Of a stretch of 64,000 nucleotides of DNA, positions 23,001 to 56,988 are shown one piece after another. This DNA comes from Daphnia pulex (Eukaryota; Arthropoda; Branchiopoda; Diplostraca; Daphniidae), in assembly GCF_021134715.1 (NCBI RefSeq), contig NC_060020.1, positions 3,534,001 to 3,598,000 of the forward strand, read 5' to 3'. How positions within the stretch are numbered: position 1 is the stretch's first letter; each line of letters opens with the position of its first letter. The position numbers and the translations under genes were made by a program. The notes beneath the pieces are model-generated. The model ran no database searches and was not told the DNA's origin. It saw only the letters and a program-made list of their open reading frames with translations.

Positions 23001-23404
23001 GGGCTTTTAGGAGCAATCGACGAATCGATCGCTGACATTTGATATCATGGCTGAAAGTTATTTACCATCGTGAGCTTCCAATGGGCCTTGGTTGCTTCTG
23101 ACGATGGATGAATGAACATAGCTTATGAATTCGAATTGCTTAGATGTTATTTTAATATGCATATGGGGATGGCTCATCTTACACCCAGATGCGAGTTATA
23201 TACATATGCAATAAAACGATCGACTCAATCGAAATCGGCGCATTTTTTCTTTACTAACTTTTATGTCTTTTCTATGATTCTCTTTTTTCTGTTTGCAGGT
23301 TAATCAAATATTGTCAAGAACATCAGAAAACAGATGTACTCGTCACGGGCATTTCCCCTTCCGAAAATCCCTTCAAGGAGAACAAGACGTGCAACTTGCT
23401 TTAA
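20062..23404 (+). CDS. Heterotrimeric G-protein gamma subunit (GNG5/GNG10-like)
   Basis: Two coding exons, 20062-20156 and 23299-23404, total 201 nt and give 66 residues (65 if the second ATG is used). Helical heptads (AMKKQVTQLRQEA, VQRIQVSQACEELIKYC) are followed by the conserved gamma block SPSENPFKENK and the C-terminal CaaX box CNLL. The final leucine predicts geranylgeranylation and membrane anchoring. The protein pairs with a G-beta subunit as an obligate dimer. The AMKK..QLR.EA..R..VSQA pattern is closest to vertebrate GNG5/GNG10. The intron is 3,142 nt, far longer than any other here. A likely poly(A) signal AATAAA is at 23785-23790. Confidence 0.93.
20157..23298 (+). other. Long intron of the G-gamma gene
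   Basis: No nested gene recognised; the short frames on both strands have no domain or splice support. Length in a genome of ~70-nt introns suggests regulatory content, but I see no specific motif to name. Confidence 0.5.
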
Positions 23405-33961: not shown

Positions 33962-34892
33962 GTTGCTTAAATTAAATGTCTCGATTGAGCGGATTTAAAT
34001 TCCGCCACATTTTTGGCCTGCACGTGAAAGGGGTTGTGACACTTTTTTCCATAGAGAATCTCTGCTGCTACAGAGTTAACAAAATTTTTAATCTCTGGAC
34101 CATTTAAAAATTAATGGCAATCGAAACGGACTGCCGGACTTTATGATGTCCTTTTTGGAATCCGTTAAAGATATTTTTCCGATCGTGTTTATTTTTCCTT
34201 TTTTTTTTGTGAACAACGCGCCAAACATTGTTATGTGTTTCTGTCTTGCCCCTTTCCCTGAATCCTCATAGTAGTTTCAGTGTAATACTTCGTGCTCACC
34301 AAAATTTGTACATAAATTCGGAATTTTAGATTGTGGCCTGATGGTAATCAAACGCGATAAACGTGCCGTTATTTCAAGTGTCTTTCCTTTTTAAAAAATT
34401 ACCAACCGACTCGTTTACACGCGGCTTTTATTATTCTCTCAGAGGAACTGCTTTGAATCCTAATGTTGATTTGTGTGTGTAACGCACGTGCCTTACAAAC
34501 CCCCCCACCAAACCACGCCTCTTCCTCTACCGAAGCGGGGTTTCCTTTTGAAAAACGAAATGAGTTACAAAATATGACGTTGTTGCATTCTCCCATTCGT
34601 TTACATTTGTAACTTATGTTAATATTTAAATCTTTCTTTCGATGCAAAGAGTCTGTGCTGCTCATGTGTTGTCATCTTTGTACAGTATCGAAAAATAAAA
34701 TACTACCGACCATGAACTTGGGTTACTGCTGATAGCCACCGTAAAATGAAATAACAAAAAATCAAATCACTAAATCAATAAATGTTTTGTATCTTCAATC
34801 TTCATATAAGGATTTTTATTTTATTTTACTTATTGCTTTTTTTTTTTAGTTTTGGTATTTTATTTTATTTTCGAAATCCATACGATCATTTA
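33962..34892. other. kibra 3'UTR and flank up to the palindrome
   Basis: A probable poly(A) signal AATAAA is at about 34695. Beyond it the sequence is AT-rich with no gene, ending where inverted-repeat homology starts. Confidence 0.5.
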
Positions 34893-34965
34893 TCGTATGG
34901 CACGCCGAAAGGCGAAAGGGTCACAAAAAAGAATGTTTTAATTTAAAAAAAGTTTCGCCGCAACG

Positions 34966-35277
34966 CTACCTAGCGGTCAAATATAGAACTGCATGCAAAA
35001 CCTTTCTTGCCCCTAAACGCGAAATTGTCTTCGTCAGAACGTGAGAAGTTGTAACATAAATCATTTCATCTGATGAGTCAACAATCAACGTTAAGCTAGC
35101 TTCGAAAATTACCAATGATTCATAGGTAAACTCGAGTGATTTCGTCTGTAATAACTTGTCGGTGATGTGTTCTATTCCGTGTATATGTTGGATAACCTTA
35201 ATGTTTTTCATCAACTCACAGTCAGAGTAAACGTGAAAGTCATGCAATCTATCGTCAACTATTTTGTTCAAACTCAT
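34966..35277 (-). other. Open frame at the outer end of the left arm
   Basis: A 103-codon frame beginning MSLNKIVDDRLHDFHVYSD. Its mirror copy at 55208-55426 keeps the first 71 codons and then diverges where the arm identity ends. No domain is recognised. It could be a gene fragment; the duplication alone is not evidence of coding. Confidence 0.25.
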
Positions 35278-38200
35278 TGTACTCTACTGAATGTGTCATC
35301 AAAATTATACAGGTAAAAACCAACACTAGATTTATTTCATGCTAAAACATATATTCTTCTCATGTTTTTATTAGGATTATTCTTAATTATCGGCTGTTTC
35401 TATTGAACTTGCTAGATCACCGACCCCAGCATGGAACAGTCTCTCATTCCATCTTATAGAGAATCTTGGATAACTGATTTGTGGTTTCATGTGTATAAAA
35501 GTTCACTTGTCATGTTACTGAACTTTATTAATTGCAGTCTAATATGTATTTTTGTTGTATTTTCAGGTTTCTAAATTGGCATGACTGACTATATGAGAAG
35601 TTATGTACCAAGAAAAGGTAGAAAACAAGATTCCTTGTTTGCTAACCGTTGGCTGCTACGTGCTACCCATGAATCTCCCTATTTTTCAACAACAAAAAAA
35701 GAGGTTAAATATTGTGATCATGCTATCATCATTGTAAGTTGTGTTTACATTGAATTTAGAGAAGTTTTAATACTAATAGCAATTTTAACGATTGTTTGGT
35801 TTCTTATTTAGATGTTGCCTATAAGACCATTAATGTGGGGCATCTGGTTATCCCTACAAAATAAGGCAATGACCAGCACACGTTCAACGCGGATCATTCG
35901 CTTTGTCATCGAACTTGACTCATTCCATCTTCTGGATTGCTTAGGAAAGCTGATTGGTGTTACCTGTGTAACTTCATTGTCATGTCACTGAATTTAAATT
36001 TTGTTTACATTTTGTTTCTTGATTTAGCCATTTAGGTAATGACCGAGAAGATGCGGCCTACATGAACATCATTTAGGCGGCCAGCATCATTCGACTACCC
36101 AACCGGCTTCTACTACCCTGCTCTCAACACAGCACGGAGTTTTACCCTTAGCTTTTTGGCTGTTCGCGATGTGTGATGGCGTTTCCTTGGACGAGATGAT
36201 GATTTTGGCGAGAAAAATATTGCGTGAGTAATATACTTAAAACTGTTTAATTATTCTTTTACTTATTTAAAATATTTTTTTTTTTCATTTACAGGTTCTA
36301 CCTTCAGGTTCCTAAATATGAAAAGTAATGTTCTTTCAAGAAAGTCAACGAGGTCCCTTACTCCCTTGTTTGCTAACCCAATGGCTGCTACCCTTGAATC
36401 TCCCTATTGAGCTCCTTACACAGTCCCCTCTTGATTTGAGGTATTGCTTTTTGTCGCTACAATCTTATTTAAAATTATTGTCATCCAATTATAATGTTCA
36501 TTCTGCTTACAGGGTAATCCTTCGCTACTGATCATGGACTCCATTGGTGAAACTGAAAACCGACGAGAGAATGCTGTAGTCCAAGACTTATAAATTGTGT
36601 AGTTAGATTAAATTACAAGTGCATTTCTGGGCTCCCTTCTTTTCTGTGGCCCCGTTTCCCTAACTAACCACTAACCAACGCCCGCCGGTGGTCACTCACC
36701 CGCTGTGAAACCAGGAGGAGGGGAGGGCTCTGGTTGAACGGGGACTTGGAAGGCGCATGATCCGACGAAAACTTTTAGAGGGTCATGAGTCTAACCCGGA
36801 AGCCTATTATGACTAATCGCTCCCCAGTAAAACTTGCCTCGCACTCTTCTCTCTTCTTCCATTTCCAGGTAATCTCCCTGGATCTACGCCGACATTGCAT
36901 GTGCGAGTTTTAGCAAGCAATCCGCCACCCAATTTGACAAAAAGTGACAGTTTGTTTTCACGGAAATTTCGTCAGACGGTTACAAAATTTCTAATTCAAC
37001 AATCTCATGTAGAAATTTGCATCTAGTCTACTGGCGCAAATTGTGATTCTTTAAGCTTGATTAATTTAGGTGATGTGTTAAAAGCAATTGTGGGTAGCTA
37101 AACAATTGAACTAATCCACTTTTTCTGAATATTTTGTTTTAGACCACTTTGTTGTTTTTAGATTTTCTTGTGATCTATCTTCAAAATATTCTGAAAAAGC
37201 GAATTAGTTCAATTTGTTGGTTAATGACAAATCTTCTAGTTAATGAAAATCAATTACCCCTCCCCCCCCCCCCCCAATCTCCTCCTCGCTGTTTTCCCAA
37301 TCGCGAAGGCATGTTTTTGACCATGCCAATGGTTATGGCTCGGACACTGAGGCCATCTGTGGCGGCCATATTTGTTTTCAATTTTGGGGCATAGGCAAGC
37401 CCTTTAGCCCCTACCTTCTTCTTGCTTCCCTGTCAGTTGAAGCGTGGGTTTTGAGAGTAAGGACGCCATTTAAATTCGTTGGTTTTTAAAGAGTCAACTA
37501 GTTTCATGTAAATTTGTGTTTGAACAATAGCTATCAGATAATGTTGCTCAATAATATTTGGGGTAACTATTTGTTCGTCTGCAGGGAGTGCAGGCCGTGT
37601 GCAATTGGACATTGGACTGATTGTCGGAGTGCAAAGTGCCAACCGCCTAGGTGTGATAATTAAAATGTTTTTTTTTTTTTTTTTCTAGTGAGATTATACT
37701 GAACTGAGCCTTTATTAAACAAGACTGCCGAATTGTTATTTTCCCAATCGAAATATCCAGTGTTATTCACGGGCATACCGTCCCCGTTGCACTTGCACGA
37801 GGTTGAAAGTCAAGCAGGATAGGCTACATTTGAAACAGCCCACATCACATCGGTGTGAATAGCAAATAGGAATTTAACTATTTATTTTTTCGCCCACATT
37901 TGACTCTCTACACCTCCATGTGGAAAGAAAGTTTCTTGTTACACATATCAGTAAGCCTAACACGATAACTTTATTGGCATTTCAAACAAATTTTTGACAA
38001 CGAGATGTAGTACAGGTTCCCTCTTGAATTTACAGTTTACTTAGAGGTCATCTTCAACTTATCTTACTCAGAATTTAGAGAATTTTTAAAGTGAGTGTGT
38101 TTCAATTATTTCTGAAAATTTCTAATTCCAGATTTTGTCAGACTGAATGAAAATCTCCTTACAATTAAAATAACAACACGGTTAATGAGGATTTGTTGTT

Positions 38201-39038
38201 TGTAAATTGTTAGCTGCTGTCACCTCTGGTTTTAGTTCATTTGTGTTTCTTGATTTGAGGTATCAAATTAGTGTCACTGCAATGCTTGAAAATTGTTGGC
38301 ATCTTACCAAATGTCCATTCTCCATTCAGGTTAATCCCTCAAAGCTGTGTTGTGGACTGGTTTCTTACAGCACTATTTGTTGCGTGCCTGAGATCGCAAG
38401 TAGGCCGCCTACGTCAATAATCTAAAACACAGTGTGTTTATTAAGTGGTCCTGGCACGGAGATCCTTGAGTCAATGCTGGCCTTTGTCCATGAGAGAAGA
38501 GTGACTTTACGCCCTGTAACTACCCAACAAGAAGTCGCTGGGCACTCGCAGTCAAGAGGAACTACGCAACCTTCCACGGCAGTTGCAGACCCCCCAAGAT
38601 CAATCCTGGTCGTTCCTTGAGCCCGATGAAAAGCAAGTCCCTGACTATTATCAGATCTTCAAGGATTGCATGGTCTTTGGTTGAGACCCGGATTGCAGAG
38701 AGACGTTATCAATGACTTGTGAAGTTTATTATCCACATCGCCAAGATTACCCCTTTATTTAATATTGGGTAAGTGCAAACTTTAATTGTTATACAGCAAT
38801 CGAAGAGTGGTAGCGCGTAAAGTGACACCTTAAAACTAAAATAGATATTGGTACTACTGCAGGACAAATATCATCCGCCGTCTGCTTTATTCTCTTTACT
38901 TTGTGGATGATGGAGAAAGAGTCGTACACTCGTACGTTAAACTGTTTAAAATTAAATTTAGGTATATTTTCAACATGTTCCAACTGATGCAGTGTTTGTT
39001 AATTATTTTTCAATTACCATTGTAGATTTCAACCTGCA
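35278..39038. other. Outer half of left arm: degenerate direct repeats, no intact gene
   Basis: Related segments near 35575-35700 and 36300-36420 share a 'cttgtttgctaacc...tggctgctac...gaatctccctatt' pattern. Segments near 36435-36530 and 38240-38340 share 'cttgatttgaggtat'. A GC-rich block lies at 36640-36850. A module at 38446-38505 (TGGTCCTGGCACGGAGA...) recurs inverted at about 44376-44437. These look like remnants of repeated elements. No intact coding sequence is seen. The mirror is 51450-55210. Confidence 0.5.
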
Positions 39039-39400
39039 GACGGACCGGCCAGTTAGCATGTCCTTCACGCTTGAAGGTCGAGGGAAACATTGTGTAAAAC
39101 TGTCAACGCGGTGGTGTAGAGGTTGGGTGAGCTGGACGTGTTGCATCATTTTCAGCAGGTACAATAGCCGCAAGGCTCAGCCATTTGGTATTCATTTTGA
39201 TTTTTGTAGACCCAACCCCAGCAACGTCAACCTAAAGAAGGAAAGGCCAGTTTGCATTTCCTTCACTTTAGAAGGCCACGGTGATCATTACGTAAAACTG
39301 TCAATGCGGTGGTGTAGAGGTTGGGTGAGGAGTGAGGACGACACGTGTAACATCATTATCAAGTAGGTAAAATAGCCGCAAGGTATAAGATGTGGGTCAG
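39039..39400 (+). repeat. Two tandem ~190-bp upstream units of the YYTT array
   Basis: Each unit holds a TCCTTCACnnTnGAAGG inverted motif, then GCGGTGGTGTAGAGGTTGGG and AATAGCCGCAAGG. Units begin near 39039 and 39233, and a third related unit lies at about 40140-40330 upstream of copy C. They stand directly before TATA boxes and are probably duplicated promoter elements. The mirror is about 51091-51452. Confidence 0.6.
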
Positions 39401-39415
39401 GGTGAGAAAAAGTCG

Positions 39416-39815
39416 TATAAAAGGAGAGAGAAAAGTCGACAAGGATCAGTCGAACGAGTATCTCCGACACGGTAACAACTTCAGCGCACTATTGGTCACC
39501 AGCTGCATTCTTCATCGTGTCATCAGTTCGCAATCATAAGTAAATATTCTGTTACTTGTTATTTAGTATCAATTTCTATTGTTTTTTAGTCAGTAATTTT
39601 TGAATATTAATGTTCAAATTAATTATTGTCTAGTAAACTATGGCGTTGTGCTACTGTTGGGCGTTGAATCGCTGACGGTTGTGTCGACCACTGGTGTACC
39701 GATGTCTCCTGGTCATATCGAAGCACAACATTGCTGTCTTAATACTCATCATCAACCAATGCTGCTCCAGCTTACACCACCAAGGCTTCAGAGTATTACA
39801 AGTTGCATTAAAGGA
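39416..39815 (+). pseudogene. YYTT-family secreted-protein gene, decayed copy A
   Basis: A TATA box (39416-39423) precedes a leader exon ending near 39538 and an intron. A signal-peptide exon starts at 39634: VNYGVVLLLGVESLTVVSTTG, then VPMSPGH. The frame then shifts, and the Tyr-rich part (YTTKASEYYK) is short and quickly stops. No in-frame ATG is found in the leader exon. Intact relatives would be tyrosine/threonine-rich secreted structural proteins; this copy is not functional as read. Mirror copy near 50676-51075. Confidence 0.6.
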
Positions 39816-40161
39816 GAGAAAAGGTTTTTCCGACACGACAACAACTTCCGCGCACAATTTGTCACCAACTGCCTTCTTCATCGTATAAAGCGGTAAATTG
39901 CAATTTTCTACATGGAATTGTGTATCAACTCTCCTTTTTTTAAATAATGTCTGTTATTTTTGCATAATTATGTTTTTAATTTATTGTATAGTAAACTGTG
40001 GTGTCGTGCTGCTGTTGGTTGCTGTCCTGAAATACTACACCACCGAGGCTTCGGAGTATTATACTACAATTTATGCTGCCGCGAGATGCATCACTGAAGA
40101 GACCGAGTACTACATGGTGATTCCATTCGTATTAAGCCATAACCATTTGGTATTGATTTGA
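39816..40161 (+). pseudogene. YYTT-family secreted-protein gene, truncated copy B
   Basis: A leader-like exon (to 39892) resembles those of copies A and C. After a GTAAAT intron comes an exon from 39992: VNCGVVLLLVAVLKYYTTEA, then SEYYTTIYAAARC and TEETEYYM, ending at 40161. Only about four Tyr-rich units remain, and it lacks the full upstream unit. Mirror copy at 50330-50675. Confidence 0.6.
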
Positions 40162-40356
40162 TATTGTTTGTTGTAGACCCACCCCCAGCAACGTCCAATT
40201 TGCATGTCCTTCACGCTTGAAGGTCGCGGAGATCATTACGAAAATTTGTCAATGCGGTGGTGTAAGGTTGGGTGAGAACAGAAAGTGTTTGCTTTATTAT
40301 CGAGCAGGTATAATAGTCGTAGGGCTTAAGAGAGGGGTCAGGGTGAGAAAAATTCG

Positions 40357-41188
40357 TATAAATGGCAAGAGAAAAGTCGATAGGGATCAGTCGAGTGAAT
40401 ACCTCCATCACGGCAACAACTGCAGCCCACTACTATTTGTCACCAACTGCCTTCTTCATTGTACAACCAGTTCGCAATCATAGGTAAAAATTCATCTTTA
40501 TTTCGAGTCGTGAATCAATTTTGTCTTGTTTTCAGTTTATATTAGTAGTTATGGTTTATATTCGATAATGTTCAAATCGTTTATATTGTTTAGTTAACTC
40601 TGGCGCCGTGCTGCTGTTTGGTGTTGTATCGTTGAAGGTTGGGTCGACCACGGGTTTACTGATGTCTTCTGGTCATGGTGGAGACCAAGCAACAGCAGTG
40701 ACAGAATACTACACCACGCCGTCGCCTTACTACGAAACGAAGTCAACATACGCAACATCTACTAACAACACCGAGGCCCCCCCCCCCCAAGTGCACACCA
40801 CCAATGCTCAAGAGTTACGCTACAAATTACGCTGCCCCGAGTTACATCACCAAAGCGCCTGAGTACTACATCACCGAGGCACTGCAACTGAGGCGGCGAA
40901 GTACTACGTAGCCCAAGCTTACAACACTGCAGCTGCTCCTTCATACTACGTTGAACTGAAACTTCACCAAGGCTGCAGTTAACTACACCACAACCTACGC
41001 TACACCTAGCTACTATGACGAAGCCCCAAACTACTACACCGAAGAGGCCACATGTTACACATCAACGTACAGTGCCCCAGTTTACTACACCGAGGAACCC
41101 AAGTATTACTCTGCTCCAAGCTACTACCAAACTGAGGCTCCTGTTTGCTATACCAAGGCCACCGAGTATTACACTACAACCAAACGGT
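40357..41188 (+). pseudogene. YYTT-family secreted-protein gene, decayed copy C
   Basis: A TATA box (40357-40363) precedes a leader exon ending at 40483. The exon from 40594 reads VNSGAVLLFGVVSLKVGSTT, then VTEYYTTPSPYYETKSTYA. A 12-base C run (13 in the mirror) follows, after which YYTT-type units continue in changing frames up to a GTAAAT donor at 41189. The C run differs between arms, so the two mirror copies have different frames downstream. Mirror copy at 49302-50134. Confidence 0.6.
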
Positions 41189-41291
41189 AAATATTGTTTC
41201 TACATGGAGTTTTGTCTCACTTTATTTTTTTTCTCTTTGGTTATATGACATTTCATATTGAAAATTGATGTTCAAATGTTTTACCGTCTAG

Positions 41292-42384
41292 TTAACTATG
41301 GGGTCGTACTGCTGTTGGTTGTATTATCCTTGATGGCTGGGTTGACCACTGGTGAACCGATGTCTCCTGGGTATGGCGGATACCAAACCGCAACGCCGGC
41401 GTCATACCACAAAACAACATACGCAGCAATCGGATACTACACCCCCAAAGCCCTAGAGTATTACACCATAAATTATTATGTCCCGAACTTCTACACCGAA
41501 GCTTCAAAGTTAAACTCAGCCCCGAGTTAAACCACCAAGGCAGCGGAGTACTACACCACCAAGGCAGCGGAGTACTACACCACCAAGGCAGCGGAGTACT
41601 ACACCACCAAGGCAGCGGAGTACTACACCACCAAGGCAGCGGAGTACTACACCACCAAGGCAGCGGAGTACTACACCACCAAGGCAGCGGAGTACTACAC
41701 CACCAAGGCAGCGGAGTACTACACCACCAAGGCAGCGGAGTACTACACCACCAAGGCAGCGGAGTACTACACCACCAAGGCAGCGGAGTACTACACCACC
41801 AAGGCAGCGGAGTACTACACCACCAAGGCAGCGGAGTACTACACCACCAAGGCAGCGGAGTACTACACCACCAAGGCAGCGGAGTACTACACCACTTCGT
41901 ATGCTGCCCAGCCTCTTACACCGAGACTCTTAAGTACTACTCCGTTCCCAGCTACTATTCCGATGCTCCAGCTTATTACGCCACTAAAGCGGTCAAATGC
42001 TACACCGGAAATACTTCTCTGCCCAGAATTACTACACAGCGGCTGTTCCTTCGTACTACGTTGAGCAGAAACACTGCACTGAGGCTCAAGTTTACTACAC
42101 TACAACTTACGCTACACCTAGGTACTACACCGAAGTCCCTAAGTACTACACCAAAGAGGCTGCATATTACACAACTCACGCTGCTCTCAGCTGCTACACT
42201 GAAGCTCTCAAGTACCACTCTACCAAGGGACCTGAGTATTATACCATTACTTACGCTGATCTGACCTGCTACACCGAAGATCCGAAGTATTCTACTGCCC
42301 GACTTACTACACCACTAAGGCACCTGGATATTACGTCACAACCTATGCTTCTCCAGTTTACTACAGGGAGGTTCTTAAATTCTA
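41292..42384 (+). pseudogene. YYTT-family secreted-protein gene, decayed copy D
   Basis: The signal-peptide exon reads VNYGVVLLLVVLSLMAGLTT, then GEPMSPGYGGYQ and KALEYYTINYYVPNFYTEA. An in-frame stop (end of 41530) lies just before fifteen perfect TTKAAEYY units. Past the units more divergent motifs (TTTYATPRYYTEVPKYYTK) lie in other frames. Its own leader exon is missing: copy C's repeat region runs directly into its intron, as expected from an unequal crossover between neighbours. Mirror copy at 48154-49198. Confidence 0.65.
41531..41890 (+). repeat. 24-bp tandem repeat, 15 perfect copies (left arm)
   Basis: Each 24-base unit encodes TTKAAEYY; fifteen exact copies fill 360 bases without a substitution. 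It sits inside YYTT copy D. Confidence 0.95.
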
Positions 42385-42942
42385 GAGCCGAAATTTATGT
42401 TTTGTTTAAATTTGTTCAGATTTCTCGGCTATGTCAAAATAGTAACTAGTCACTTGGAATGATGTTGATCACTTAAATGAGCGAATACATTTTTTAATGG
42501 TAAACATCTTGTACGAATTTTAAACACCTTCAAATCTTTGACATTTCGACGTGTTCTAATTTTTGTTGGATCTTTCTTACTTCTTATGTCGGAGGTGTTT
42601 GCATTCGGACACTCTATTGCTTGGACGAATTTCGTTTTCAGGGTAAGTTATGCAAGTTAATAACTCTGTATCTGCAACTTAATTGGCGTAACAAAGATGC
42701 TCATGGCAGATCGTTCGGTTCGTCATAAAAGTTTATTTGCAGAGTCTGAAGTTGATCAGGCACTTGCATAAATTTATGTAAAACTTCAAAGTTATATGAA
42801 ATGTACGAGTGTTAAACATTATAAAAGACATAGCAAACAAAAACTTTAAAGGAATTGTTTTATTGTCCCACCTCCACCCACAATTCCACCACATTTTACA
42901 ATCACACATACATAAATACATACATACATACACTTAAGTTAA
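42385..42942. other. Arm sequence between YYTT copy D and the MITE
   Basis: No gene seen. Ends in a CATA microsatellite-like stretch (42905-42930) beside the piggyBac-like insertion. Confidence 0.5.
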
Positions 42943-43269
42943 CCCGTTGGCTGCCACGCCATACAACCCGTAGGTTGTTCTTCTACTACTCTACGCGCCA
43001 CGTCAGAAGGATCTATGACCAAGGAGGGACTTGCCATTGCTGACAAGTCCGGGCTGACACGGTGACAGGAGAAGATGGAATGCACGCCTCTAGAATCCAT
43101 CACCGTATCGACAAGGGGGAAGTCCCTATGGTGCACTGCCTAACAGGCGCCTTGCGGCGAATCTTGGGCTGGTGCGACTGTCCGACCCCGCGGCATGTAA
43201 ACCACGAGACCGAACAGCGCGGCCCGTGCTAAGGAGCTAGGGGAGAACAAAGGCGTGGCAGCCAACGGG
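42943..43269. mobile_element. piggyBac-like MITE (left arm)
   Basis: A 327-bp element with perfect 18-bp terminal inverted repeats CCCGTTGGCTGCCACGCC, flanked on both sides by TTAA. The CCC...GGG ends with a TTAA target duplication are the hallmark of piggyBac-superfamily insertion. There is no transposase gene, so it is non-autonomous. Confidence 0.85.
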
Positions 43270-43540
43270 TTAACAAACACAAACGAAAACATATTACCAA
43301 CAACAAATGATGATCCGCGCTGACATTTTGGAGATACTGGCGACGTTTTGGTGTCCATCTTCTCCACGTCTCCTCTGCATTACCTGAATAAAGAGAAAAC
43401 AATTCTTAATTAGTGACATGCCAATAAAAGTTACATAATACAGATAGAAACAATAGTCAGGTTTTTAAGCTCAAAGATTTAAAGATGCAATTTCTTGAAC
43501 GTAAAATCAAGCTTGCAATAGTGAGAACTGCAAACAGAAT

Positions 43541-43942
43541 AAAGCTCACTTGCTAGTTTTTTGAAAATTTTCCGGAAGTAGACCGGAAGTAACAACAGCG
43601 CCTCAACCATTGAGCTGTCATCAAATTAAACCACATTTTCGTGATCCCCATGAAATTTGGGGTCGATTAGGTGTGATTTAGATGAAATCCAAAATTTGGC
43701 CAAAATCGAGAATTTTCCTGAACTATAGTTCAGGTGTCGTGAACTATAGTTCAGGAAAATTTTCGAAACCGGAAGTACGCGTACGTAAAAAAGATAACAT
43801 GAACTTTACCACAAATTTGACGAGGATCACGAATATGTGGTTCTTTTTTACGTCGAATGAATATTTACTGAACTACTGACTGAAATGTGAAAACCGGAAG
43901 TAGAAAAAAAAGCAATTATCGAAAATTTAACAAGTGAGCTTT
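43541..43942. mobile_element. Fold-back MITE (left arm)
   Basis: A 402-bp element with ends AAAGCTCACTTG / CAAGTGAGCTTT. The two halves are imperfect reverse complements along most of their length (for example AACCACATTTTCGTGATCC against AACCACATATTCGTGATCC). At the centre (about 43713-43760) two copies of the palindrome GAACTATAGTTC are spaced by a few bases. No clear target-site duplication; superfamily unknown. Confidence 0.7.
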
Positions 43943-45161
43943 GTTGCTGGAATAGTAATCGTCAGTTATCACTAAATATTTCAACAAAATAACTGCCAAT
44001 AAATATAAAAAGAGATGTTCAAAGTAACTGAAACTGACTGTTTTGACAGCTGCAAATTATCAAAAAGCCATCTAGCGTTAGAAAAAAGAAACGTCCAAGT
44101 AAAACTTCGTTTGCGCGTAAAAGGGCCTGATTTTGGAAACTATTACACAGACAGAGACTAAAGCAACTAGATTTTTGGTAGATAACCTACGAAAATAAGT
44201 CAATTGTTGGGTACCTGGGCATAATCCCGTGGTGAGTGACTGCACAGCGGACGGAAGCGATCATGAAGTGGTCCAGAAACTCGCCAAGTCGCCAGTGAAG
44301 TAAAACAAATTGTGTTTAGAAGCAGTGAAGCTAGATGAGCGTGCGTCGCGAAGATAAGGATGGACGTTGCTGGAAGTCCCTCTTCCGTCATGGACAAAGG
44401 TCAGCATTGGCACAAGACTCTCCGTGCCAGGACCACACGATTCCATAAAGAAACTGCGTGCTCTGTAAAAAAAAGTGTTTTTCATGAATGAAAATATAAA
44501 AATGAATAAAGCATATCAATCATTTCTTTACCTTTTCTAAGAAGCACACTGAAATGCTCATGATAAAAAAACCGTAAAAATGGAATCCACAGCAGGTTAT
44601 TCACATCACACTCTTCATGTCTCTGAAACTCTATGTGGAAAAGGGACAAGGAAATTCTCTACGTTATACACCATCAAAATTGTGAGATTCATAAAAGATC
44701 TATGTTTCATGAGCAAGAATACCTATGTTACATGAAAATCTGAATGGTATAATGGTCTGGTTGCAGTAATGGAGAAATACCTTATCTCAGCACATTTGTA
44801 TTCCACTTAATGTTGACTTCAACCATGAGTTTTAGGCTTTTGACATCATGATAGGCCTAATGGATGGAAAGTGACTGAGCGCCAAGTCAACTTGTTGGAA
44901 TTACTGACAGTCAGTATGCATCTAAATTGGAAGGATAAGTTGGTACAGTATAAAAATAAGGAAACCATGTTAATATTAACCTACATAAGTTATGAAGTTC
45001 AATTTGGTAAATGAAATCACAGGAATATAGGTATTAATTAGCTACAATTTGTTTCGCCCAATTAGCCTCGTTTATCGATGTAACAACAACATGGGCGACA
45101 CTAGCGACATCTAGTAATGAGTTCCTAAAGTTGGTTGCACAGCCACAGCTCAAATTAAATT
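43943..45161. other. Inner part of the left arm
   Basis: Contains the inverted module TGGTCCTGGCACGGAGA (minus, about 44376-44437) and, from 44642 inward, the diverged inner segment. No gene recognised. The mirror is 45257-46594. Confidence 0.5.
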
Positions 45162-45256
45162 GGAGTTCTATTGTCGCGTAGTGGAGTTCTATTTTCGGAT
45201 AATAAAAATATTGGGGTTCTATTGTCGGTGTCGGTGACAAACGACAATAGAACTCC
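45162..45256. repeat. Palindrome centre with short repeats and hairpin
   Basis: Four copies of a 15-mer, GGAGTTCTATTGTCG or one mismatch from it, sit at 45162, 45183 and 45213 (plus) and 45256-45242 (minus). The third and fourth form a 12-bp stem with a 14-base loop at 45216-45253, centred at 45234.5, which is the symmetry axis of the palindrome. Confidence 0.8.
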
Positions 45257-46594
45257 AATAATTGGATCACATTTAGCTGTGATTGTGCAATCATCTAAGG
45301 ATTAAAAACTCATTACTAGATGTCGCCAGTGTCGCCTTGTTGTTGTTACATCGTAAAACGAGGCAAAATGGGCGAAAGAATTGGTTGCTAATTTATACTT
45401 ATATTCCTGTGATTTCAATTATCAAATTGAACTTCGTATCTTGTGTAGGTTTATCTTTACCTAGTTTCCTTACTTTTATATTGTATCATTTTATTTCTTC
45501 AAATTTTAGATGCAACTGTCAGTCATTTCAACAAGTTGACTTAGCGCTTAGTCACTTTCCATCCAATAGACTCATCATGCTGTCAAAAGCCTAAAATTAA
45601 AGTTTGAAGCCCACATATAGTGCAATACAAATCTGCTGAGATAAGGTAATTCCCCATTACTGCTACCAGACCATTACAATTCAGATTTTTCATGTAACAT
45701 AGGTATTCTTTTTCATGAACCATAGGATCTTTTCTGAATTTCACAATTTTGGTGGTGTACCCTGCAACAGCATGTTTTTTGTTATGGCTGTTTCTACTTC
45801 TGTTTAGAAGGCAACCCAGATGAGGGATAGGTATAGTTTTATTTCTCGTAAATTTGTGTAAATTTGTAAATAACGTAGAGAATTTCCTTGTCCTATTTCC
45901 ACATAGAGTTTCAGAGACATGAAGAGTGTGATGTGAATAACCTGCTGTGGATTCCATTTTTACGGTTTTTTTATCATGAGCATTTCAGTGTGCTTCTTAG
46001 AAAAGGTAAAGAAATGATTGATATGCTTTATTCATTTTTATATTTTCATTCATGAAAAACACTTTTTTTTACAGAGCACGCAGTTTCTTTATGGAATCGT
46101 GTGGTCCTGGCACGGAGAGTCTTGTGCCAATGCTGACCTTTGTCCATGACGGAAGAGGGACTTCCAGCAACGTCCATCCTTATCTTCGCGACGCACGCTC
46201 ATCTAGCTTCACTGCTTCTAAACACAATTTGTTTTACTTCACTGGCGACTTGGCGAGTTTCTGGACCACTTCATGATCGCTTCCGTCCGCTGTGCAGTCA
46301 CTCACCACGGGATTATGCCCAGGTACCCAACAATTGACTTATTTTCGTAGGTTATCTACCAAAAATCTAGTTGCTTTAGTCTCTGTCTGTGTAATAGTTT
46401 CCAAAATCAGGCCCTTTTACGCGCAAACGAAGTTTTACTTGGACGTTTCTTTTTTCTAACGCTAGATGGCTTTTTGATAATTTGCAGCTGTCAAAACAGT
46501 CAGTTTCAGTTACTTTGAACATCTCTTTTTATATTTATTGGCAGTTATTTTGTTGAAATATTTAGTGATAACTGACGATTACTATTCCAGCAAC

Positions 46595-46997
46595 AAAGCT
46601 CACTTGTTAAATTTTCGATAATTGCTTTTTTTTTCTACTTCCGGTTTTCACATTTCAGTCAGTAGTTCAGTAAATATTCATTCGACGTAAAAAAGAACCA
46701 CATATTCGTGATCCTCGTCAAATTTGTGGTAAAGTTCATGTTATCTTTTTTACGTACGCGTACTTCCGGTTTCGAAAATTTTCCTGAACTATAGTTCACG
46801 ACACCTGAACTATAGTTCAGGAAAATTCTCGATTTTGGCCAAATTTTGGATTTCATCTAAATCACACCTAATCGACCCCAAATTTCATGGGGATCACGAA
46901 AATGTGGTTTAATTTGATGACAGCTCAATGGTTGAGGCGCTGTTGTTACTTCCGGTCTACTTCCGGAAAATTTTCAAAAAACTAGCAAGTGAGCTTT
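46595..46997. mobile_element. Fold-back MITE (right arm)
   Basis: Mirror of 43541-43942, one base longer because of a T run near 46626 (9 versus 8). Confidence 0.7.
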
Positions 46998-47268
46998 ATT
47001 CTGTTTGCAGTTCTCACTATTGCAAGCTTGATTTTACGTTCAAGAAATTGCATCTTTAAATCTTTGAGCTTAAAAACCTGACTATTGTTTCTATCTGTAT
47101 TATGTAACTTTTATTGGCATGTCACTAATTAAGAATTGTTTTCTCTTTATTCAGGTAATGCAGAGGAGACGTGGAGAAGATGGACACCAAAACGTCGCCA
47201 GTATCTCCAAAATGTCAGCGCGGATCATCATTTGTTGTTGGTAATATGTTTTCGTTTGTGTTTGTTAA

Positions 47269-47595
47269 CCCGTTGGCTGCCACGCCTTTGTTCTCCCCTA
47301 GCTCCTTAGCACGGGCCGCGCTGTTCGGTCTCGTGGTTTACATGCCGCGGGGTCGGACAGTCGCACCAGCCCAAGATTCGCCGCAAGGCGCCTGTTAGGC
47401 AGTGCACCATAGGGACTTCCCCCTTGTCGATACGGTGATGGATTCTAGAGGCGTGCATTCCATCTTCTCCTGTCACCGTGTCAGCCCGGACTTGTCAGCA
47501 ATGGCAAGTCCCTCCTTGGTCATAGATCCTTCTGACGTGGCGCGTAGAGTAGTAGAAGAACAACCTACGGGTTGTATGGCGTGGCAGCCAACGGG
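47269..47595. mobile_element. piggyBac-like MITE (right arm)
   Basis: Exact mirror of 42943-43269, with TTAA at 47265-47268 and 47596-47599. The insertion was carried by the palindrome rather than gained twice. Confidence 0.85.
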
Positions 47596-48153
47596 TTAAC
47601 TTAAGTGTATGTATGTATGTATTTATGTATGTGTGATTGTAAAATGTGGTGGAATTGTGGGTGGAGGTGGGACAATAAAACAATTCCTTTAAAGTTTTTG
47701 TTTGCTATGTCTTTTATAATGTTTAACACTCGTACATTTCATATAACTTTGAAGTTTTACATAAATTTATGCAAGTGCCTGATCAACTTCAGACTCTGCA
47801 AATAAACTTTTATGACGAACCGAACGATCTGCCATGAGCATCTTTGTTACGCCAATTAAGTTGCAGATACAGAGTTATTAACTTGCATAACTTACCCTGA
47901 AAACGAAATTCGTCCAAGCAATAGAGTGTCCGAATGCAAACACCTCCGACATAAGAAGTAAGAAAGATCCAACAAAAATTAGAACACGTCGAAATGTCAA
48001 AGATTTGAAGGTGTTTAAAATTCGTACAAGATGTTTACCATTAAAAAATGTATTCGCTCATTTAAGTGATCAACATCATTCCAAGTGACTAGTTACTATT
48101 TTGACATAGCCGAGAAATCTGAACAAATTTAAACAAAACATAAATTTCGGCTC

Positions 48154-51075
48154 TAGAATTTAAGAACCTCCCTGTAGTAAACTGGAGAAGCATAGGTTGT
48201 GACGTAATATCCAGGTGCCTTAGTGGTGTAGTAAGTCGGGCAGTAGAATACTTCGGATCTTCGGTGTAGCAGGTCAGATCAGCGTAAGTAATGGTATAAT
48301 ACTCAGGTCCCTTGGTAGAGTGGTACTTGAGAGCTTCAGTGTAGCAGCTGAGAGCAGCGTGAGTTGTGTAATATGCAGCCTCTTTGGTGTAGTACTTAGG
48401 GACTTCGGTGTAGTACCTAGGTGTAGCGTAAGTTGTAGTGTAGTAAACTTGAGCCTCAGTGCAGTGTTTCTGCTCAACGTAGTACGAAGGAACAGCCGCT
48501 GTGTAGTAATTCTGGGCAGAGAAGTATTTCCGGTGTAGCATTTGACCGCTTTAGTGGCGTAATAAGCTGGAGCATCGGAATAGTAGCTGGGAACGGAGTA
48601 GTACTTAAGAGTCTCGGTGTAAGAGGCTGGGCAGCATACGAAGTGGTGTAGTACTCCGCTGCCTTGGTGGTGTAGTACTCCGCTGCCTTGGTGGTGTAGT
48701 ACTCCGCTGCCTTGGTGGTGTAGTACTCCGCTGCCTTGGTGGTGTAGTACTCCGCTGCCTTGGTGGTGTAGTACTCCGCTGCCTTGGTGGTGTAGTACTC
48801 CGCTGCCTTGGTGGTGTAGTACTCCGCTGCCTTGGTGGTGTAGTACTCCGCTGCCTTGGTGGTGTAGTACTCCGCTGCCTTGGTGGTGTAGTACTCCGCT
48901 GCCTTGGTGGTGTAGTACTCCGCTGCCTTGGTGGTGTAGTACTCCGCTGCCTTGGTGGTTTAACTCGGGGCTGAGTTTAACTTTGAAGCTTCGGTGTAGA
49001 AGTTCGGGACATAATAATTTATGGTGTAATACTCTAGGGCTTTGGGGGTGTAGTATCCGATTGCTGCGTATGTTGTTTTGTGGTATGACGCCGGCGTTGC
49101 GGTTTGGTATCCGCCATACCCAGGAGACATCGGTTCACCAGTGGTCAACCCAGCCATCAAGGATAATACAACCAACAGCAGTACGACCCCATAGTTAACT
49201 AGACGGTAAAACATTTGAACATCAATTTTCAATATGAAATGTCATATAACCAAAGAGAAAAAAAATAAAGTGAGACAAAACTCCATGTAGAAACAATATT
49301 TACCGTTTGGTTGTAGTGTAATACTCGGTGGCCTTGGTATAGCAAACAGGAGCCTCAGTTTGGTAGTAGCTTGGAGCAGAGTAATACTTGGGTTCCTCGG
49401 TGTAGTAAACTGGGGCACTGTACGTTGATGTGTAACATGTGGCCTCTTCGGTGTAGTAGTTTGGGGCTTCGTCATAGTAGCTAGGTGTAGCGTAGGTTGT
49501 GGTGTAGTTAACTGCAGCCTTGGTGAAGTTTCAGTTCAACGTAGTATGAAGGAGCAGCTGCAGTGTTGTAAGCTTGGGCTACGTAGTACTTCGCCGCCTC
49601 AGTTGCAGTGCCTCGGTGATGTAGTACTCAGGCGCTTTGGTGATGTAACTCGGGGCAGCGTAATTTGTAGCGTAACTCTTGAGCATTGGTGGTGTGCACT
49701 TGGGGGGGGGGGGGCCTCGGTGTTGTTAGTAGATGTTGCGTATGTTGACTTCGTTTCGTAGTAAGGCGACGGCGTGGTGTAGTATTCTGTCACTGCTGTT
49801 GCTTGGTCTCCACCATGACCAGAAGACATCAGTAAACCCGTGGTCGACCCAACCTTCAACGATACAACACCAAACAGCAGCACGGCGCCAGAGTTAACTA
49901 AACAATATAAACGATTTGAACATTATCGAATATAAACCATAACTACTAATATAAACTGAAAACAAGACAAAATTGATTCACGACTCGAAATAAAGATGAA
50001 TTTTTACCTATGATTGCGAACTGGTTGTACAATGAAGAAGGCAGTTGGTGACAAATAGTAGTGGGCTGCAGTTGTTGCCGTGATGGAGGTATTCACTCGA
50101 CTGATCCCTATCGACTTTTCTCTTGCCATTTATACGAATTTTTCTCACCCTGACCCCTCTCTTAAGCCCTACGACTATTATACCTGCTCGATAATAAAGC
50201 AAACACTTTCTGTTCTCACCCAACCTTACACCACCGCATTGACAAATTTTCGTAATGATCTCCGCGACCTTCAAGCGTGAAGGACATGCAAATTGGACGT
50301 TGCTGGGGGTGGGTCTACAACAAACAATATCAAATCAATACCAAATGGTTATGGCTTAATACGAATGGAATCACCATGTAGTACTCGGTCTCTTCAGTGA
50401 TGCATCTCGCGGCAGCATAAATTGTAGTATAATACTCCGAAGCCTCGGTGGTGTAGTATTTCAGGACAGCAACCAACAGCAGCACGACACCACAGTTTAC
50501 TATACAATAAATTAAAAACATAATTATGCAAAAATAACAGACATTATTTAAAAAAAGGAGAGTTGATACACAATTCCATGTAGAAAATTGCAATTTACCG
50601 CTTTATACGATGAAGAAGGCAGTTGGTGACAAATTGTGCGCGGAAGTTGTTGTCGTGTCGGAAAAACCTTTTCTCTCCTTTAATGCAACTTGTAATACTC
50701 TGAAGCCTTGGTGGTGTAAGCTGGAGCAGCATTGGTTGATGATGAGTATTAAGACAGCAATGTTGTGCTTCGATATGACCAGGAGACATCGGTACACCAG
50801 TGGTCGACACAACCGTCAGCGATTCAACGCCCAACAGTAGCACAACGCCATAGTTTACTAGACAATAATTAATTTGAACATTAATATTCAAAAATTACTG
50901 ACTAAAAAACAATAGAAATTGATACTAAATAACAAGTAACAGAATATTTACTTATGATTGCGAACTGATGACACGATGAAGAATGCAGCTGGTGACCAAT
51001 AGTGCGCTGAAGTTGTTACCGTGTCGGAGATACTCGTTCGACTGATCCTTGTCGACTTTTCTCTCTCCTTTTATA
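48154..51075 (-). pseudogene. Mirror array of the four decayed YYTT genes (right arm)
   Basis: Reverse-complement copies of A (about 51075-50676), B (50675-50330), C (50134-49302) and D (49198-48154), with the same damage as in the left arm. The damage therefore predates the last homogenisation of the arms. Differences are confined to the C/G run in copy C (13 versus 12) and the number of 24-bp units in copy D (13 versus 15). Confidence 0.65.
48648..48959 (-). repeat. 24-bp tandem repeat, 13 perfect copies (right arm)
   Basis: Reverse complement of the left-arm repeat, two units (48 bases) shorter. This is the largest difference between the homogenised arm cores. Confidence 0.95.
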
Positions 51076-54000
51076 CGACTTTTTCTCACCCTGACCCACA
51101 TCTTATACCTTGCGGCTATTTTACCTACTTGATAATGATGTTACACGTGTCGTCCTCACTCCTCACCCAACCTCTACACCACCGCATTGACAGTTTTACG
51201 TAATGATCACCGTGGCCTTCTAAAGTGAAGGAAATGCAAACTGGCCTTTCCTTCTTTAGGTTGACGTTGCTGGGGTTGGGTCTACAAAAATCAAAATGAA
51301 TACCAAATGGCTGAGCCTTGCGGCTATTGTACCTGCTGAAAATGATGCAACACGTCCAGCTCACCCAACCTCTACACCACCGCGTTGACAGTTTTACACA
51401 ATGTTTCCCTCGACCTTCAAGCGTGAAGGACATGCTAACTGGCCGGTCCGTCTGCAGGTTGAAATCTACAATGGTAATTGAAAAATAATTAACAAACACT
51501 GCATCAGTTGGAACATGTTGAAAATATACCTAAATTTAATTTTAAACAGTTTAACGTACGAGTGTACGACTCTTTCTCCATCATCCACAAAGTAAAGAGA
51601 ATAAAGCAGACGGCGGATGATATTTGTCCTGCAGTAGTACCAATATCTATTTTAGTTTTAAGGTGTCACTTTACGCGCTACCACTCTTCGATTGCTGTAT
51701 AACAATTAAAGTTTGCACTTACCCAATATTAAATAAAGGGGTAATCTTGGCGATGTGGATAATAAACTTCACAAGTCATTGATAACGTCTCTCTGCAATC
51801 CGGGTCTCAACCAAAGACCATGCAATCCTTGAAGATCTGATAATAGTCAGGGACTTGCTTTTCATCGGGCTCAAGGAACGACCAGGATTGATCTTGGGGG
51901 GTCTGCAACTGCCGTGGAAGGTTGCGTAGTTCCTCTTGACTGCGAGTGCCCAGCGACTTCTTGTTGGGTAGTTACAGGGCGTAAAGTCACTCTTCTCTCA
52001 TGGACAAAGGCCAGCATTGACTCAAGGATCTCCGTGCCAGGACCACTTAATAAACACACTGTGTTTTAGATTATTGACGTAGGCGGCCTACTTGCGATCT
52101 CAGGCACGCAACAAATAGTGCTGTAAGAAACCAGTCCACAACACAGCTTTGAGGGATTAACCTGAATGGAGAATGGACATTTGGTAAGATGCCAACAATT
52201 TTCAAGCATTGCAGTGACACTAATTTGATACCTCAAATCAAGAAACACAAATGAACTAAAACCAGAGGTGACAGCAGCTAACAATTTACAAACAACAAAT
52301 CCTCATTAACCGTGTTGTTATTTTAATTGTAAGGAGATTTTCATTCAGTCTGACAAAATCTGGAATTAGAAATTTTCAGAAATAATTGAAACACACTCAC
52401 TTTAAAAATTCTCTAAATTCTGAGTAAGATAAGTTGAAGATGACCTCTAAGTAAACTGTAAATTCAAGAGGGAACCTGTACTACATCTCGTTGTCAAAAA
52501 TTTGTTTGAAATGCCAATAAAGTTATCGTGTTAGGCTTACTGATATGTGTAACAAGAAACTTTCTTTCCACATGGAGGTGTAGAGAGTCAAATGTGGGCG
52601 AAAAAATAAATAGTTAAATTCCTATTTGCTATTCACACCGATGTGATGTGGGCTGTTTCAAATGTAGCCTATCCTGCTTGACTTTCAACCTCGTGCAAGT
52701 GCAACGGGGACGGTATGCCCGTGAATAACACTGGATATTTCGATTGGGAAAATAACAATTCGGCAGTCTTGTTTAATAAAGGCTCAGTTCAGTATAATCT
52801 CACTAGAAAAAAAAAAAAAAAAACATTTTAATTATCACACCTAGGCGGTTGGCACTTTGCACTCCGACAATCAGTCCAATGTCCAATTGCACACGGCCTG
52901 CACTCCCTGCAGACGAACAAATAGTTACCCCAAATATTATTGAGCAACATTATCTGATAGCTATTGTTCAAACACAAATTTACATGAAACTAGTTGACTC
53001 TTTAAAAACCAACGAATTTAAATGGCGTCCTTACTCTCAAAACCCACGCTTCAACTGACAGGGAAGCAAGAAGAAGGTAGGGGCTAAAGGGCTTGCCTAT
53101 GCCCCAAAATTGAAAACAAATATGGCCGCCACAGATGGCCTCAGTGTCCGAGCCATAACCATTGGCATGGTCAAAAACATGCCTTCGCGATTGGGAAAAC
53201 AGCGAGGAGGAGATTGGGGGGGGGGGGGGGAGGGGTAATTGATTTTCATTAACTAGAAGATTTGTCATTAACCAACAAATTGAACTAATTCGCTTTTTCA
53301 GAATATTTTGAAGATAGATCACAAGAAAATCTAAAAACAACAAAGTGGTCTAAAACAAAATATTCAGAAAAAGTGGATTAGTTCAATTGTTTAGCTACCC
53401 ACAATTGCTTTTAACACATCACCTAAATTAATCAAGCTTAAAGAATCACAATTTGCGCCAGTAGACTAGATGCAAATTTCTACATGAGATTGTTGAATTA
53501 GAAATTTTGTAACCGTCTGACGAAATTTCCGTGAAAACAAACTGTCACTTTTTGTCAAATTGGGTGGCGGATTGCTTGCTAAAACTCGCACATGCAATGT
53601 CGGCGTAGATCCAGGGAGATTACCTGGAAATGGAAGAAGAGAGAAGAGTGCGAGGCAAGTTTTACTGGGGAGCGATTAGTCATAATAGGCTTCCGGGTTA
53701 GACTCATGACCCTCTAAAAGTTTTCGTCGGATCATGCGCCTTCCAAGTCCCCGTTCAACCAGAGCCCTCCCCTCCTCCTGGTTTCACAGCGGGTGAGTGA
53801 CCACCGGCGGGCGTTGGTTAGTGGTTAGTTAGGGAAACGGGGCCACAGAAAAGAAGGGAGCCCAGAAATGCACTTGTAATTTAATCTAACTACACAATTT
53901 ATAAGTCTTGGACTACAGCATTCTCTCGTCGGTTTTCAGTTTCACCAATGGAGTCCATGATCAGTAGCGAAGGATTACCCTGTAAGCAGAATGAACATTA

Positions 54001-55207
54001 TAATTGGATGACAATAATTTTAAATAAGATTGTAGCGACAAAAAGCAATACCTCAAATCAAGAGGGGACTGTGTAAGGAGCTCAATAGGGAGATTCAAGG
54101 GTAGCAGCCATTGGGTTAGCAAACAAGGGAGTAAGGGACCTCGTTGACTTTCTTGAAAGAACATTACTTTTCATATTTAGGAACCTGAAGGTAGAACCTG
54201 TAAATGAAAAAAAAAAATATTTTAAATAAGTAAAAGAATAATTAAACAGTTTTAAGTATATTACTCACGCAATATTTTTCTCGCCAAAATCATCATCTCG
54301 TCCAAGGAAACGCCATCACACATCGCGAACAGCCAAAAAGCTAAGGGTAAAACTCCGTGCTGTGTTGAGAGCAGGGTAGTAGAAGCCGGTTGGGTAGTCG
54401 AATGATGCTGGCCGCCTAAATGATGTTCATGTAGGCCGCATCTTCTCGGTCATTACCTAAATGGCTAAATCAAGAAACAAAATGTAAACAAAATTTAAAT
54501 TCAGTGACATGACAATGAAGTTACACAGGTAACACCAATCAGCTTTCCTAAGCAATCCAGAAGATGGAATGAGTCAAGTTCGATGACAAAGCGAATGATC
54601 CGCGTTGAACGTGTGCTGGTCATTGCCTTATTTTGTAGGGATAACCAGATGCCCCACATGAATGGTCTTATAGGCAACATCTAAATAAGAAACCAAACAA
54701 TCGTTAAAATTGCTATTAGTATTAAAACTTCTCTAAATTCAATGTAAACACAACTTACAATGATGATAGCATGATCACAATATTTAACCTCTTTTTTTGT
54801 TGTTGAAAAATAGGGAGATTCATGGGTAGCAGCCAACGGTTAGCAAACAAGGAATCTTGTTTTCTACCTTTTCTTGGTACATAACTTCTCATATAGTCAG
54901 TCATGCCAATTTAGAAACCTGAAAATACAATAAAAATACATATTAGACTGCAATTAATAAAGTTCAGTAACATGACAAGTGAACTTTTATACACATGAAA
55001 CCACAAATCAGTTATCCAAGATTCTCTATAAGATGGAATGAGAGACTGTTCCATGCTGGGGTCGGTGATCTAGCAAGTTCAATAGAAACAGCCGATAATT
55101 AAGAATAATCCTAATAAAAACATGAGAAGAATATATGTTTTAGCATGAAATAAATCTAGTGTTGGTTTTTACCTGTATAATTTTGATGACACATTCAGTA
55201 GAGTACA

Positions 55208-55426
55208 ATGAGTTTGAACAAAATAGTTGACGATAGATTGCATGACTTTCACGTTTACTCTGACTGTGAGTTGATGAAAAACATTAAGGTTATCCAACAT
55301 ATACACGGAATAGAACACATCACCGACAAGTTATTACAGACGAAATCACTCGAGTTTACCTATGAATCATTGGTAATTTTCGAAGCTAGCTTAACGTTGA
55401 TTGTTGACTCATCAGATGAAATGTGA
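55208..55426 (+). other. Mirror copy of the outer-arm open frame
   Basis: 72 codons identical at the start to 35277-34966. It ends early because the sequence differs from about 55424 onward, exactly at the edge of the homogenised core. Confidence 0.25.
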
Positions 55427-55598
55427 TTTACCTATGTTACAACTTACAACTTCTCACGTTCTGACGAAGAAAATTTCGCGTTTAGGGGAAAAAAAAAGGG
55501 AATTTTGCATGCAGTTCTATATTTGACCGCTAGGTAGCGTTGCGGCGAAACTTTTTTTAAATTAAAACATTATTTTTGTGGTTTCGGCGTGCCATACC

Positions 55599-56988
55599 AT
55601 AATAATGCACTGTACTTACAACCTAAAGAATAGTGTTAAGTTTCTCGCTTAAACACAAGGATGAAAAATGGATGGAAATATTTACCCGATAGACGGGTAT
55701 CTGCTAAACGCAGACGGGAAGGGTATAAGACAATAATAGGTTACATGCTAGAAAATTCATTGTGCGAAAAGGTTTAGTGTTTATTATTGAATAGACGTCT
55801 GCAATCACTAACGCAACGCAACATGGCTTTTATCAACATTATATTGTATCATAGCTGTAATTCGCTGGTGGGTTAAACACGCTCTCACCGGAGCAAACGG
55901 TTAAGTAAATACGGGAATGTGTCTGCGTTTATTGATTACAAGATGAGCTGCAATGACGTTGGCTGTAGACATTTTGAGCATATTGACTGCGCTGAACTGT
56001 TCAGACCAAACAACTGAACAAATTTAGTCTTAATCGACTAGTAGTGCTTTTGAGTTTCTCTTGATCAGACATTTGCGGCTGAAAAATGTTGCGATTCAGT
56101 CGCTGAAATATATTTTTTGGCGCAATGCATATACTAGTTTGTGTTGTTTCCAGTTCATAGACCTTATTTCCCATCCCATCAACTCACTAATCTAACGTCA
56201 CGTTTTTCATTTTAGAAATGGTTATAGCGTCGGAAATGTCGTTTGCTTCCATTGCTTGAATAATAAGTTACCTAAGACGGGAGTGATTACATCACCCATA
56301 CGTTGATATCAGGACAACGCGGATTCGAGATTGCTTCCGATCCAAGAGACTCTTACCGAATGCGCTGCTGGACCGCGTTTCTACTTTTGCAATCTCGTGC
56401 GGATATCGCAGAGGGAATGCATTATGACATATTTCATTATAAGTGAGATTTTCGCCTTTCTTCTCCTCGTTCGTCACCAGGATTCGTTTACGTCATTTTG
56501 CTTCCCCTGTGACGCAAACTTATAAGGAATACATAGAACGCTTTCTAGCATCAAAAGTTTGAGCTTTCGTGAAGTTCCTTGCGCTCTCTTACCACATCTT
56601 CGTTATGAGGTAATAGACGGCACCGTGAGTCTATTCTTAATTATAATCACAGTTTCAATTTGAATCAAAGTCAAAAGTGCTGTTCAACTATCGATTTTCA
56701 TTATATATCCTCCCACGAGCTGACATAATAATATAATAAGGACACCGCCCTCCAAAATATCGACCGCGTTGTAGGAGGATTGTGCGCCGCCGCAGAATAT
56801 TCTATACGGTACACATTGGGGGGTGCAATAGTTAGCGCTGCAAAGGGGGTAAGAAACGGTAGAATGTCTTCCAAATATTACGTTTCTCTCTGCTGACCGT
56901 CCCGTTCAAACAAACTTTGTTTGGTGATCTTCAACGAAAAATTTCAAATAACCCCGCGGATTTGTGATACTTGAGAAAGAAAGAAAGA
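55599..56988. other. Intergenic, right flank of the palindrome
   Basis: Unrelated to the left flank. Promoter and 5'UTR of the HD-like gene are presumably in its last few hundred bases. No other gene seen. Confidence 0.5.

Follow-up and report, generated by a model that had tools for sequence, protein, structure and literature searches.

The window analysed here is a 64,000-base stretch of the Daphnia pulex genome without any N (contig NC_060020.1 of assembly GCF_021134715.1, positions 3,534,001 to 3,598,000), and all coordinates below refer to it. Between the gene kibra on the left and a TipE gene on the right, it contains a large, near-perfect inverted repeat. Comparison of the window with itself by BLAST returns one large opposite-strand match, 34,922-44,667 against 55,580-45,870 (9,767 columns, 99.13% identity, 8 mismatches, 12 gap openings); the other opposite-strand rows are shifted matches of a tandem repeat within the arms. 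Once the halves are globally aligned, the limits of the repeat lie at about 34,887 and 55,604, giving a total of 20.7 kb. An initial annotation made from the letters alone had described a palindrome of this size, and its outer limits were right to within about six bases. Chance is excluded by mirrored stretches that match exactly over as much as 3,515 bp, and the inverted repeat is genuinely present in the sequence.

Base-by-base alignment of the two halves separates four zones. A diverged outer strip (34,887-35,062, + strand) pairs with 55,425-55,604 (- strand). It is followed by the near-identical arms, 35,063-44,666 (+ strand) and 45,871-55,424 (- strand), which are seen in both the self-comparison and the alignment. 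Further inward lies a diverged, apparently old central inverted repeat, with its left half at 44,667-45,178 (+ strand), an unpaired middle of 62 bp at 45,179-45,240 and its right half at 45,241-45,759 (- strand). The fourth zone is a segment of 111 bp that is present only on the right (45,760-45,870), exactly at the onset of high identity. While the initial annotation had the arms meeting at about 45,235 with no real spacer, the structure is an interrupted palindrome: 1,204 bp separates the near-identical arms, of which 62 + 111 bp are unpaired and the remainder is itself a worn inverted repeat.

The arms differ by 4 substituted bases in 9,549 aligned pairs, an identity of 99.96% excluding gaps, which reaches the level of about 99.9% expected of a gene-conversion palindrome of the ape Y type. 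The substitutions fall at three sites (35,554; 35,832; 44,642-44,643), with none in the 8,761 aligned pairs within 35,833-44,641. The slippage-type differences are three homopolymers that differ by one base and a 24-bp repeat that differs by two units, and there is one further indel of 7 bp at 35,654. The earlier estimate of about one substitution in roughly 9.5 kb is corrected accordingly, to four substituted bases with the 7-bp indel in addition.

The three substitution sites and the 7-bp indel are located 24-769 bp from the ends of the 9.6-kb arm stretch. Compared with uniform placement, this clustering has P = 0.0007 for all four events and P = 0.0043 for the three substitution sites alone, in a post hoc test that covers four events and excludes the slippage-type changes (three homopolymer, one repeat-number). 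Divergence is 8.3%, 16.9% and 12.6% in the inner bins, 0.26% and then 4.3% in the outer ones, and 0% over the 8,761 pairs lying between them. The guanine-plus-cytosine content is 41.2% in the arms, 39.2% and 42.1% in the flanks and 34.9% in the centre, values that do not clearly point to biased conversion.

Beyond the arms, the homologous stretches are more diverged on both sides; this is our own criterion, used in place of a comparison with a second species. The two halves of the centre differ by 66 substitutions in 501 aligned pairs (13.2%) and 11 indels, 4 of them in homopolymers, and the identity drops abruptly at 44,667/45,870. The outer strip carries 7 substitutions in 164 aligned pairs (4.3%); its indels number 7 in one alignment and 8 in another. 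Ratios of transitions to transversions, 30:36 in the centre and 3:4 in the outer strip, are uninformative. The 111-bp segment has no convincing source elsewhere in the window, where its best other match spans 18 columns at 88.9%.

The regions outside the repeat are unlike each other, as had been claimed: 28.0-34.9 kb and 55.6-62.5 kb showed no homology when compared using small words and relaxed scoring. A perfect 9-bp inverted repeat with a 5-base loop, CCATACGAT...ATCGTATGG (34878-34900), straddles the left outer end of the palindrome, and the word CCATACCAT at 55,592-55,600, at the end of the right arm, resembles it. The 9-bp inverted repeat could be the mark of a template switch or could be due to chance.

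The arms appear to hold a cluster of decayed copies of a gene for a secreted Tyr-Tyr-repeat protein, a family of genes common in Daphnia, reading toward the centre in both arms. In the left arm the cluster occupies 39,597-42,450 on the + strand, and its mirror image lies on the - strand in the right arm. Four signal-peptide-like starts (39,597; 39,955; 40,557; 41,255) are found between about 39.6 and 42.4 kb, and stretches rich in the Tyr-Tyr motif are spread over all three frames of this interval, so that the repeat-protein copies are frame-broken. The arm also contains direct repeats, the five longest pieces of which (113-493 columns) are 76-81% identical. A separate array of a 24-bp tandem repeat, encoding TTKAAEYY, lies at 41,531-41,895 on the + strand, directly behind an in-frame TAA at 41,528-41,530. 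It has 15.2 units in the left arm and 13.2 units in the right arm (48,643-48,959), as computed from the coordinates; the tandem-repeat listing starts the left array at 41,524 and gives 15.6 copies. The copies are nearly all identical, and the arms differ by exactly two units.

Six-frame translation of the left arm (34,893-44,700) gave no Pfam family above its cut-off, a scan in which a gene lacking a Pfam domain could be missed. The Cornifin match on this arm (E 6.6e-7; 30 bits, with the cut-off at 34.8) was rejected, as its coordinates place it mainly on the 24-bp repeat in another frame. No intact gene was found in the arms; such genes are common, though not universal, in the palindromes of ape Y chromosomes. 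The 24-bp repeat had 0 matches in viral contigs, and a degenerate two-unit form had 0 matches in prokaryote genomes. A search of the literature for the Tyr-Tyr-repeat protein returned nothing usable among the papers listed.

The neighbouring genes were identified with Pfam, in scans that began at 15.8 kb on the + strand and at 25.5 kb on the - strand. On the left, kibra (+ strand) is recognised by a WW domain near 28.7 kb and a WWC1 hairpin near 30.4 kb, in agreement with the initial annotation, and an open frame ending at 33,961 is probably the end of the gene. The same annotation had placed an HD-like gene to the right; the six frames of 55.5-64 kb contain no such Pfam domain at E 0.01, and the gene found there is TipE (- strand, best stretch about 62.8-63.2 kb). 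Further left are a DnaJ gene (about 25.6-26.2 kb, - strand), whose second domain misses the cut-off by half a bit, and a gene for aminopeptidase P (about 16.9-18.3 kb). The flanking genes look ordinary and conserved, and an autosome-like setting is plausible from these neighbours. A pattern built from a kibra exon matched prokaryote genomes 131 times, with 0 matches confirmed. The whole window has no tRNA (bacterial settings) and no Rfam family at gathering score. A possible G-gamma domain is seen at 23297-23392 (+ strand, E 3.9e-5, 24 bits, below the cut-off of 27.1), and short 9-bp and related tandem arrays occur at 6782-6864 and 8582-8697, for example CCACCATAT in 8.2 copies.

On balance we lean towards reading the palindrome as an old interrupted inverted duplication whose arms have been kept identical, or were recently made so, by arm-to-arm gene conversion. 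The duplication would have formed long ago, and intrachromosomal conversion between the arms would since have homogenised them over most of their length. Conversion may have stopped short of the outermost 0.2 kb and the central 1.2 kb, which would have retained the old divergence. If conversion reaches the ends of the arms less often, differences near these ends are the expected profile. The initial annotation had not proposed this mechanism. The reading starts from the places and amounts of identity and divergence, the differences clustered at the arm ends and the decayed gene content; from these we infer a common origin of edges and arms, conversion as the homogenising process and a correct assembly. 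Since the arms hold decayed genes, the palindrome can be read as a mechanical by-product of recombination, with no host function needed.

Approximate ages and rates follow if the sites are neutral and Daphnia rates apply. Published rates for Daphnia lie between 2.3e-9 and 8.9e-9 per site per generation (as quoted in PMC12926508). With zero substitutions in 8.8 kb, the last homogenisation would fall within about 19,000-74,000 generations (95% limit, rates 8.9e-9 to 2.3e-9; calculated over 8,809 positions, or 8,761 without gaps), while the central divergence would correspond to about 8-31 million generations. To hold the arms at steady state, conversion would have to proceed at a minimum of 1.35e-5 to 5.2e-5 per site and generation. 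This is near the allelic conversion rate of D. obtusa, 2.62e-5 with tracts averaging 320 kb (PMC12926508), and below the 2.2e-4 quoted for Y palindromes (PMC3723533). Minimum conversion tract lengths of up to 9,023 bp were inferred for the human palindrome P6 and provide a precedent for long tracts (PMC3723533).

Several observations weigh against this reading. The inner edge is abrupt and falls at the 111-bp insertion, a combination that a rearrangement junction could produce. Substitutions are less frequent in the outer strip than in the centre (4.3% vs 13.2%; Fisher P = 0.0009), and indels are proportionally far more numerous there, with indels to substitutions at 7:7 compared with 11:66 (P = 0.006), so that the two edges have no one simple shared history. 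The slippage-type changes omitted from the clustering test do lie in the middle of the arms. The steady-state rate exceeds the allelic conversion rate of D. pulex itself, 6.47e-6 (quoted in PMC12926508); a single recent event, which needs no such rate, is therefore the easier form of the reading for this species. A consensus built across two arms so alike could mask genuine differences. In Folsomia candida, the synonymous divergence (Ks) of palindromes varied widely, and the authors found no indication of concerted evolution (PMC5490193).

The main biological rival is a young fold-back duplication seeded by the old, short central inverted repeat, which we regard as unlikely. In this scenario, the chromosome would break near the 0.5-kb, 13%-diverged repeat; the broken strand would fold back onto its inverted partner, pair with it, copy 10 kb outward and rejoin the right flank. 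The centre would then be older than the arms, and the arms would never have needed conversion. An abrupt edge at 44,667 with an insertion at that junction fits such an event, as does the presence of inverted homology at the fold point together with a short spacer, 1.2 kb between the arms. In human fold-back duplications the spacers measure 766-70,466 bp, five junctions carry insertions, and one event arose at 296 bp of 90%-identical inverted Alu sequence (PMC3907307). The zero substitutions over 8.8 kb suit one young event, and the indel-rich outer strip could reflect error-prone rejoining. A young duplication predicts differences that are evenly spread, whereas those not of the slippage type are found near the ends (P = 0.0007, post hoc, four events). 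The outer strip aligns throughout with 4.3% substitutions, which is unexpected of a clean copy, and rejoining an interstitial flank would require a second template switch.

Less probable still is an artefact of assembly or reading, whether from a chimeric or fold-back read or from two haplotype contigs joined head to head. There are precedents, as the palindromes of the 2013 assembly of Adineta vaga were not recovered in A. ricciae (PMC5916493) and erroneous scaffolding has been named as a source of false palindromes (PMC7953838); a self-copy or an inbred line would likewise fit the lack of substitutions. A fold-back read usually mirrors the flanks, whereas the flanks here are unlike, and it predicts perfect symmetry near the turning point, where identity is in fact lowest (66 of 501 pairs substituted). 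The central divergence consists mainly of substitutions, 66 against 11 indels of which four are in homopolymers, and the outer strip is diverged too. The arms themselves are distinguished by four bases, three homopolymer lengths, a 7-bp unit and two 24-bp units. Indels abound in raw long-read error; the central transition-to-transversion ratio of 30 to 36 does not separate error from evolution. The view of the initial annotation that a simple fold-back read is a poor explanation is supported by the unlike flanks and is strengthened by the diverged centre and outer strip. A giant foldback-type transposable element with long terminal inverted repeats would share the architecture of long inverted repeats around a short middle. 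We rejected it as very improbable: there is no target-site duplication (at 6 bp, the best word in common is not situated outside both ends), no transposase or other element domain appears in the six frames of the left arm, and the arm has no match in the rest of the window.

The initial annotation expected such a palindrome to be unstable. The worn, asymmetric quasi-palindromic centre should weaken hairpin formation. In yeast, a 9-bp spacer in an inverted 320-bp Alu lowered the level of breaks by about 80% relative to no spacer, with no further change up to 12 bp (PMC8053094). In the same study, interrupted and perfect palindromes alike raised rearrangements more than 10,000-fold, so an interrupted palindrome is not thereby safe. 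The worn centre may lessen the stability puzzle and does not remove it, if yeast results can be transferred to an animal.

Gene-conversion palindromes are an already known kind of structure. Like those of the repeat described here, the arms of the human and ape Y palindromes (P1-P8) are more than 99.9% identical. The Y arms lie around a spacer, their divergence between species is lower than that of the spacer, and multi-kilobase conversion tracts have been inferred for P6 (PMC3723533). The Daphnia palindrome differs in that the genes around it look ordinary and conserved and most of the sequence separating its arms is an older, diverged inverted repeat. Its arms are about 10 kb long, compared with about 110 kb for P6, a length derived from 88,031 bp making up 80% of a P6 arm. 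The Daphnia arms contain decayed genes, while testis genes are enriched in most Y arms. The palindromes of A. vaga and F. candida are likewise inverted duplications, in partly or wholly asexual animals, for which conversion has been proposed. Unlike the present case they are gene-order palindromes; Ks in F. candida ranges widely (0.2 for Dscam2), in contrast to 8.8 kb without a substitution here (PMC5490193), and some of the calls in the two species may be assembly errors (PMC5916493, PMC7953838). Human disease fold-back duplications share the inverted homology and short spacer at the centre, while most lie at chromosome ends with deletions or translocations and not, as here, between two unlike flanks (PMC3907307). 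As new events, they would be expected to show even identity, whereas differences lie at the ends here.

We found no comparable Daphnia structure among the open-access titles and abstract openings listed, a part of all hits, which is weak evidence of absence with most subscription journals outside the search. In two Daphnia papers, "palindrome" occurs for read trimming only (PMC10570034) or only inside the name CRISPR (PMC9360664), and neither "palindrom" nor "inverted" occurs in PMC12926508. For want of an annotation, D. pulex could not be included in the screen of a survey covering 26 parthenogens (PMC7953838).

Palindrome conversion is usually discussed as gene protection on non-recombining chromosomes or in asexual lineages. 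It is possible, though we put it forward as tentative, that the structure is an ancient palindrome outside the sex chromosomes, in an animal alternating between clonal and sexual reproduction, kept identical by arm-to-arm conversion despite having no intact gene in its arms. The palindrome bears on how Daphnia assemblies should be checked, and Daphnia mutation-accumulation lines, such as those of D. obtusa (PMC12926508), could allow the rates of arm-to-arm and allelic conversion to be measured directly. A palindrome poor in genes and set among conserved ones would uncouple the mechanism from the proposed benefit of gene protection. If the tentative proposal is true, such palindromes would persist for mechanical reasons and not for gene protection, and the worn, asymmetric centre would be what prevents their breakage.

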